A stretch of DNA of 32,308 bases from assembly GCA_016931115.1 (NCBI GenBank), contig JAFGFM010000171.1, forward strand, positions 1 through 32,308. Direction: 5' to 3'. The DNA is from Deltaproteobacteria bacterium (GTDB lineage: Bacteria; Desulfobacterota; DSM-4660; Desulfatiglandales; HGW-15). Positions 29,248 to 30,781 of this stretch are shown here, one piece after another (the stretch's first letter is position 1; the number at the start of each line of letters is the position of its first letter). The position numbers and the translations under genes are program-made. The notes beneath the pieces were generated by a model. It ran no database searches and was not told the origin of the DNA. It saw only the letters and a program-made list of their open reading frames with translations.

Positions 29248-29319
29248 GGGTGGACCTGTGTGTCCACCCGGTATTTGAGGATGTTATCGGGATCATCGGG
29301 CAGGCACACAGGCCTGCCC
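29248..29319. repeat. Pair of GC-rich palindromes
   Basis: Two hairpins 28 bases apart: GGGTGGAC / GTCCACCC (29248-29269, loop CTGTGT) and GGGCAGGC / GCCTGCCC (29298-29319, loop region with ACACA), the second followed by CTAC. Sequences of the form GGGCAGRC-ACAYAGG-TCTGCCCCTAC are widespread dispersed repeats in bacterial genomes. They occupy the 265-base gap between dtd and the radical SAM gene, where nothing else is evident. Confidence 0.7.
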
Positions 29320-29419
29320 CTACATTACTTAAAATGTTTTTATACGCTTTTGAAAATGTAACATCCCTGATTAAAGGAAGAATATTTTTAAATTAGAAAA
29401 AAAATTATAAGGTTTGTTA

Positions 29420-30781
29420 ATGGATAGTCTGATACTTATCAACCCCTGGATATACGATTTTGCTGCCCATGATTTGTGGTCAAAACCCCTTGGCCTGCTT
29501 TATATTGCAGGATATTTAAGAGGTTTGGGGCTGAATGTCCATGTGATCGACTGCATGGATAAAAACAACCCTGATATGCTGAATAGCTTTTCAGCCAAAA
29601 AACCGGTGGTAAAAAGATATGGCACAGGAAAGTATTACATGGAGGAGATAGAAAAGCCTTCTGCATTAAAGCATGTACAGCGTAAATATAGCAGGTACGG
29701 CATTCATCCTGATATTTTTAGAATATTATTAACATCAATTGAGAAACCTTCTGCAATACTGGTAACATCGCTTATGACATACTGGTACCCCGGGGTAATA
29801 GATTCAATAAGGATTGTAAAAGAGATACACCCCGGTGTCCCTGTAATCCTTGGAGGAATCTACGCAAGGTTGTGTCCAGATCATGCGAGAAACTTTTCAG
29901 GTGCAGATAATGTGGCAAGTGAAATAAACCTGGATAACATCTCATCGTTACCCGATATCCTTGCCAGTTTTAACATCTCTGTAGAGACAAGGCATGCCTT
30001 GTCTCTACGGGGTGCTAGTGCCTTTTACCCAGCGTTTGATACATACAACAAAATTGATTATATTACCATCCAGACATCAACAGGCTGCCCATACAAATGT
30101 AAATACTGCGCAAGCAGGTTTCTTTATCCTGTCTTTAAAAGGCGAGACCCTGACGATGTTGTCTCTGAAATCATACACTGGCATACCGGATATAATGTGA
30201 TCGACTTTGCCTTTTACGATGATGCCCTGCTTATTGATTCAGAGAGGCATATTGTTCCTATCCTCGATAAATTAAAAACCAATAACATCAGGGTCAGGTT
30301 TCACACACCCAATGCCCTTCATGTAAAGGAGATCACATCGGATATAGCAAGGCTGCTCTTTTCTTCAGGGTTCACCACTATAAGACTCGGTCTTGAGACA
30401 TCAGATATGGATATGCACAGAGAGCTGGATAAAAAGATCGCCCTTGGTGATTTTGAGACCGCGGTAAGGAATCTACGAGAGGCAGGATTTACCAAAAAGG
30501 ATATTGGTGCATATATACTGATGGGGCTCCCCGGTCAATCAGTAGAATCAGTTACAGAGACTGTGATGTTTGCTGATAAAGCTGGTGCAATGCCCTATCT
30601 TGCCGAATATTCTCCACTTCCTGAAACACCTTTATGGGAACCATCAGTAGCATGCGCAAGATTTGACCTTAAAAGCGACCCCATATTTCAAAATAACTCT
30701 CTTTTATCCTGCTGGAATGATGATCAGTTAAAAAAATTACCTGAACTGAAAGCCGTTGTCAAAAAGATAAGAGAGGCATGA
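29420..30781 (+). CDS. B12-binding-domain radical SAM protein
   Basis: 453 aa from the ATG at 29420, chosen because AGG lies seven bases upstream (a TTG two codons earlier is possible). The N-terminal part (about 1-165) resembles a cobalamin-binding domain, with KPLGLLYIAGYLRGLGLNVH and VILGGIYARL. The radical SAM core follows, with the cluster motif Cys223-x3-Cys227-x2-Cys230 in TGCPYKCKYCASRF, then FAFYDDALL, IRLGLETSD and GAYILMGLPGQ. The classical DxHxxG corrinoid motif is not evident, so B12 may not be bound. Family members methylate or rearrange many substrates; none can be chosen here. A perfect 28-base palindrome sits in frame at the domain boundary (codons about 188-197). A UroD-family gene follows 104 bases later. 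Confidence 0.88.
   Translation: MDSLILINPWIYDFAAHDLWSKPLGLLYIAGYLRGLGLNVHVIDCMDKNNPDMLNSFSAKKPVVKRYGTGKYYMEEIEKPSALKHVQRKYSRYGIHPDIFRILLTSIEKPSAILVTSLMTYWYPGVIDSIRIVKEIHPGVPVILGGIYARLCPDHARNFSGADNVASEINLDNISSLPDILASFNISVETRHALSLRGASAFYPAFDTYNKIDYITIQTSTGCPYKCKYCASRFLYPVFKRRDPDDVVSEIIHWHTGYNVIDFAFYDDALLIDSERHIVPILDKLKTNNIRVRFHTPNALHVKEITSDIARLLFSSGFTTIRLGLETSDMDMHRELDKKIALGDFETAVRNLREAGFTKKDIGAYILMGLPGQSVESVTETVMFADKAGAMPYLAEYSPLPETPLWEPSVACARFDLKSDPIFQNNSLLSCWNDDQLKKLPELKAVVKKIREA
29981..30008. repeat. Perfect 28-base palindrome inside the radical SAM gene
   Basis: Half-site GTAGAGACAAGGCA followed by its exact inverted copy, no loop. GTAGAGAC...GTCTCTAC palindromes are widespread dispersed repeats, normally intergenic. 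Here the element is read through in frame, coding for VETRHALSLRG, between the N-terminal domain and the radical SAM core. Confidence 0.85.

Follow-up and report, generated by a model that had tools for sequence, protein, structure and literature searches.

A perfect 28-nt palindrome that is dispersed through the genome is read in frame as protein inside the gene of a B12-binding-domain radical SAM protein. The gene lies near the end of the window, by which we mean the whole 32,308-nucleotide stretch of DNA that was analyzed (contig JAFGFM010000171.1 of assembly GCA_016931115.1, from a Deltaproteobacteria bacterium). Very probably, a REP-like repeat inserted into the linker between the two domains of the protein before the host species split from its sister, and it has been translated as passive linker ever since.

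A Palindrome Is Read in Frame Between Two Protein Domains

The initial annotation, made from the window alone, described a perfect 28-base palindrome within coding sequence at a domain boundary. This was confirmed: the arms of the element pair without a single mismatch, the ORF runs uninterrupted to 30781 (with TTG at 29414 as an alternative start), and the palindrome sits between the B12-binding and the radical SAM matches (Table 1). All rows of a 39-row alignment share the radical SAM cysteines C223, C227 and C230. The element, GTAGAGACAAGGCATGCCTTGTCTCTAC, is the sole perfect palindrome of at least 16 nt in the window, from whose base composition 0.00016 perfect 28-mer palindromes are expected. 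With residues counted from the ATG at 29420, its in-frame translation is VETRHALSL (residues 188–196) plus the first base of the codon for R197; of the peptide originally given, VETRHALSLRG, the final G therefore falls outside the element. Two of the three reading frames of the palindrome are free of stops. Since 28 nt is not a multiple of three, a plain insertion of this length would shift the frame. As RNA, the palindrome folds into a hairpin of 12 bp (−18.6 kcal/mol, z −6.6).

Table 1. Features of the radical SAM gene and its upstream region (window positions).
Feature	Position	Strand	Remarks
B12-binding-domain radical SAM protein gene, 453 aa	29420..30781	+	from ATG 29420
B12-binding match, residues 108–163, N-terminal side of linker	29741..29908	+	PF02310, E 5.1e-11
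Perfect 28-nt palindrome GTAGAGACAAGGCATGCCTTGTCTCTAC	29981..30008	.	one of 43 genomic copies
Radical SAM core, residues 218–384, C-terminal side of linker	30071..30571	+	PF04055, E 6.2e-17
Separate GTAG-REP GTAGGGGCAGGCCTGTGTGCCTGCCC, GTAG outside stem, upstream of gene	29298..29323	-	
Second hairpin GGGTGGAC..GTCCACCC, upstream of gene	29248..29269	.	

The GTAG-REP and the hairpin upstream of the gene, the second of which is possibly the partner of the first, are context and separate from the intragenic element. Neither has a counterpart in the short upstream region of the sister species.

The Palindrome Belongs to a Repeat Family Expanded in the Genus

That the element is a dispersed repeat, as had been suspected from the one copy, is borne out by the genome of the host (5.18 Mb in 240 contigs): far from being unique, it occurs in 43 copies with at most 3 mismatches, 21 of them perfect, and a reversed control pattern gave 0 matches. 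Related elements that share its arms but differ in the center are also present. The genome of the sister species likewise holds 43 copies at this threshold. The pattern GTAGAGAC-N8-16-GTCTCTAC was found in 8 of the 99 genomes searched, with 39 occurrences in the host genome, 35 in that of the sister and 1–4 in each of six genomes from another family of the order; it was absent from all 15 genomes of other genera of the same family. These counts indicate that the repeat expanded in the genus, with copies scattered elsewhere.

Many copies adjoin, or sit between, hairpins ending in CTAC, which are of the GGTCGGGAATAAATCCCGACCCTAC and GGTGGNNTATAAAANNCCACCCTAC types (BLAST clusters that are loosely linked), and composite arrays around palindrome copies are seen at L005-L042 and L159-L193. 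With a strict pattern, a hairpin was detected within 60 nt of 4 of the 43 host copies and 5 of 42 sister copies, as against 1 of 4000 random positions. The copy in the window is solitary, with no such hairpin adjoining it. Two rearranged copies were also observed. At L022:973-1024 of the host genome the palindrome carries 24 extra nt in its center and is uninterrupted at the sister locus L160; at L164:5245-5295 of the sister genome there is a partial head-to-tail duplication, GTAGAGAC..CTACGAAAAGGCATGCC..CTAC, where the host locus L034:4001 has one copy. The open-access literature matches listed included no paper on the palindromic repeat or on the radical SAM gene, and those listed for bare 8-mers were only unrelated papers.

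Coding Sequence Is Otherwise Avoided by the Palindrome

As ca. 88% of the window is coding, random placement would put ca. 38 of the 43 copies in genes. Stop-to-stop ORFs of at least 100 codons overlap only 11, mostly at ORF ends. The expectation that such elements are usually intergenic thus holds here, and coding sequence is otherwise avoided. The copy in the window is alone among the 43 in having recognized domains on both sides. Pfam analysis of the overlapping ORFs covered 10 ORFs from nine loci (L010:5762 was left out); the ORFs at L025 and L042:4001 had no Pfam match. Six loci were rejected as intragenic cases: in L005, L014, L016 and L026 the palindrome precedes the likely start codon, as judged by eye, and in L013 and L024 the stop codon of the ORF is the TAG of GTAG.

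One further copy is read as protein, within the C-terminal tail of a SAM methyltransferase (ORF L040:3106-4146 of the host genome). The methyltransferase at the sister locus L175 ends in ...EADGTFCYTFFKAVGLV-stop, with the repeat lying beyond it. Compared with L175, a 56-nt deletion took the end of the methyltransferase and its stop codon in the host genome, and the ORF continues through the repeat, reading the 3′ palindrome copy as RRDKACLVS. Deletion of a stop codon thus gives the repeat another way into protein.

The Insertion Is Shared with the Sister Species and Absent from Other Homologues

The orthologue of the radical SAM protein in the sister species is 84% identical to it. The two genes share 83% of nucleotides over the alignment and 68% at third positions, so the gene has remained conserved between the species with the element in place. 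The same codons of the sister gene read PLSRHALSLHD in an open frame. Here the palindrome is eroded: its right 19 nt are identical to those in the window, and the left arm has been altered by substitutions and a 3-nt deletion. Since there are 16 identical runs of at least 19 nt in this gene pair, the 19 identical nucleotides prove no constraint.

Homologues were compared in an alignment of 111 rows (91 distinct), of which 108 are from outside the genus; most of the named records bear the title Deltaproteobacteria or Desulfobacteraceae. None of these 108 rows has RHAL in the linker. Apart from the window and the sister species, RHAL occurs in one row, L128, at a position outside the linker. The insertion is thus missing from other homologues, as had been anticipated, and homologues that lack the element do not carry its residues either. 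Being common to both species at the same site and absent elsewhere, the insertion is older than the species split.

The length of the linker, measured from LGG to PAFD, is 60 residues in the window and 59 in the sister species, compared with 51–57 residues in the 108 rows (57 in 64 rows and 54 in 30). Among nine rows from other genera of the same family, in which several genomes recur under a second locus number, the linker has 57 residues in eight, as read by eye. An insertion of about ten residues had been proposed; the segment was indeed inserted, but the linker is only about three residues longer than in those eight homologues, and host sequence was lost as well. Set against a 28-nt element, a net gain of 9 nt implies that the linker lost ca. 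19 nt, either during insertion or shortly afterwards, an estimate derived from other genera at ca. 53–59% identity. The frame was thus kept because of the net length and not because of the element's own length. If the ancestral linker had 50–51 residues, 27 or 30 nt could simply have been inserted; a linker as short as 51 residues occurs in 1 of the 108 rows. No clean empty site, that is, the same gene in the same genus without the element, was found, and two further DNA searches for empty sites in the sister species ran into contig ends and broken synteny.

In the AlphaFold2 model built from the 39-row alignment (mean pLDDT 89.4, pTM 0.89), residues 194–197 are the only segment below 50 pLDDT, which may be due in part to nearly empty alignment columns. 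They are placed in coil between predicted helices 171–182 and 199–202, so that in the model the insertion site is a loop between the domains. The site is a hypervariable linker of variable length. The position in the linker, its variable length and the low-pLDDT coil support the original proposal of an insertion into a tolerant linker.

We consider the following course of events very probable. A REP-like palindrome dispersed in the genus would have landed in the B12-binding radical SAM gene before the species separated, at a disordered, length-variable linker between the two domains. Some 28 nt would have been gained and some 19 nt of linker lost, and with a net change of +9 nt the frame would have survived; both the order and the size of these indels are inferred. 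The segment would then have been translated as passive linker, with the palindrome staying intact in the host species; in the sister species, the left arm would have decayed by substitutions and the 3-nt deletion while the frame stayed open. The element itself probably spread by means of a RAYT-type (REP-associated tyrosine) transposase or by template switching.

Conservation of the Palindrome and Alternative Explanations

For 15 of the 43 host copies, both flanks were present in the sister loci fetched. A copy with at most 6 mismatches was found at 12 of these sites and not at three (L016, L025 and the window, whose counterpart in the sister gene is the eroded copy described above); L040 and L175 were paired later and stand outside the 12. 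None of these 12 orthologous pairs is in the interior of a gene; across them, 9 of 336 element positions differ, and the flanks (up to 700 nt) match at 76–93%. In two pairs both ends carry matched changes (GCAG..CTGC and TTAG..CTAA).

Such conservation raises the thought that the palindrome is the core of a genus-specific composite repeat held as DNA or RNA, copies of which genes capture repeatedly. We regard this broader picture as a tentative one, with the odds well against it. If true, the repeat would be one with a fully paired GTAG..CTAC center, often beside REP-like hairpins and nearly perfect across species; its capture would proceed by insertion with linker loss, as in the radical SAM gene, or, as in the L040 methyltransferase, through a deletion that removes the stop codon; and new protein segments would arise from a repeat kept for another reason.

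In the radical SAM gene, too, the palindrome could be kept as a binding site in DNA or as a hairpin in RNA, with the peptide a by-product. The low divergence of the 12 pairs relative to their flanks, the matched changes and the strength of the RNA hairpin all point this way, but the sister loci had been fetched because they hold copies with at most 3 mismatches, which biases the pairs towards conserved ones. Moreover, palindromes can be kept perfect by template-switch repair even in the absence of selection, and the sister copy in this very gene has lost its left arm. We therefore consider maintenance at the DNA or RNA level unlikely.

Less likely still is domestication proper, in which the residues encoded by the palindrome gained a function, for instance in domain spacing, interaction or regulation, and selection on the protein maintains them. 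Both species retain the frame and RHALSL although the neighboring residues differ (SVET or PLS before, RGASAF or HDNFSF after), as such selection would predict. Against this stand the commonness of identical runs this long in the gene pair, the location of the segment in the coil that the model predicts with least confidence and the fact that homologues do without it. The element had initially been called domesticated; what is evidenced is tolerance only, with no sign that the segment has a function.

The two remaining explanations are highly improbable. The net linker length, just 2–3 residues off most homologues, would suit ancestral linker residues turned palindromic by chance or codon drift, but this is refuted by the copy number together with the absence of RHAL from the linkers of all 108 rows, and the 43 copies and the low expectation for 28-mers rule out a chance palindrome. 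Misplacement of a repeat into the gene during assembly is conceivable, given that both assemblies are fragmented and that several contig ends of the sister genome have the repeat nearby, but a diverged copy occupies the same codons in the sister assembly, which is independent. Passive carriage of an old insertion in the linker is thus the reading that we retain.

Comparison with Known Repeat Systems

PF01797 (RAYT-family) matches number six in the host genome, some of them fragments or with stops, and seven in the sister genome, five of which are in open frames of 327–344 aa. No palindrome copies were found beside RAYT genes in the flanks fetched, several of which are cut by contig ends; the motif scan of these flanks left out L047 and L048, which were covered for GTAG..CTAC palindromes. 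One RAYT gene of the sister species, L201, has REPs of the GTAGGGGC type, a different family, around and inside it. Its ORF (L201:1444-2073, minus strand) translates one such REP (1691-1716) in frame into GQPQGVAPTY. More GTAGGGGC/GCCCCTAC motifs lie at 2041 and 2105.

In the REPtron (TnpA-REP, or RAYT) system, as presented in PMC8266576, hairpin repeats with GTAG are recognized by a single-strand tyrosine transposase. Our repeat resembles that system in its GTAG-bearing hairpins and in the occurrence of PF01797 genes in both genomes. It differs in that no palindrome copy lies at the RAYT genes fetched and that one of them, in the sister species, is accompanied by the GTAGGGGC.. family.

Intragenic REPs, tagged with GTAG or CGTC, 20–40 bp long and mostly intergenic, are the subject of PMC3733652 (Di Nocera et al. 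2013); some are read through in genes, and the authors suggest that such copies may have no effect where they fall in flexible linkers or loops. In GTAG-REPs as described in that article, the tag is at one end and unpaired. The main text there does not contain the word start "Desulfo" and does contain the abbreviated D. alkenivorans. Like those repeats, ours is a short dispersed palindrome (28 nt, 43 copies) that is mostly intergenic, with one domain-flanked copy and one in a C-terminal tail, and that is read through inside a gene. Unlike the GTAG-REPs so described, it is a full palindrome whose GTAG is base-paired with the terminal CTAC, and we therefore do not file it as a GTAG-REP, though it works like a REP.

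A parallel for the in-frame reading is provided by the Rickettsia palindromic elements (RPEs, RPE-1 to RPE-7), which lie in ORFs without disrupting the frame and occupy the same site in orthologues (PMC3767692). They encode solvent-exposed segments, and several RPE types are frequent in ORFs. Compared by description, our element is likewise a palindrome within an ORF, with the frame intact and the same site occupied in the orthologue; it differs from the RPEs so described in belonging to another lineage and in having one interior case among the 43 host copies. Since it is dispersed, lies in a conserved ORF, keeps the frame and is found at the same site of the orthologue, it has the properties of in-frame intragenic palindromes. 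The phenomenon is known from other bacteria, and the radical SAM gene is a new example of it, otherwise an ordinary case. It adds a well-documented instance, from outside Rickettsia, of a dispersed palindrome that is translated, and it corrects the tempting reading that the element is a multiple of three, the frame having been saved by net length (28 nt gained and ca. 19 nt lost). What can become of such a segment is illustrated by the sister copy, in which the palindrome has decayed and the frame is still open.
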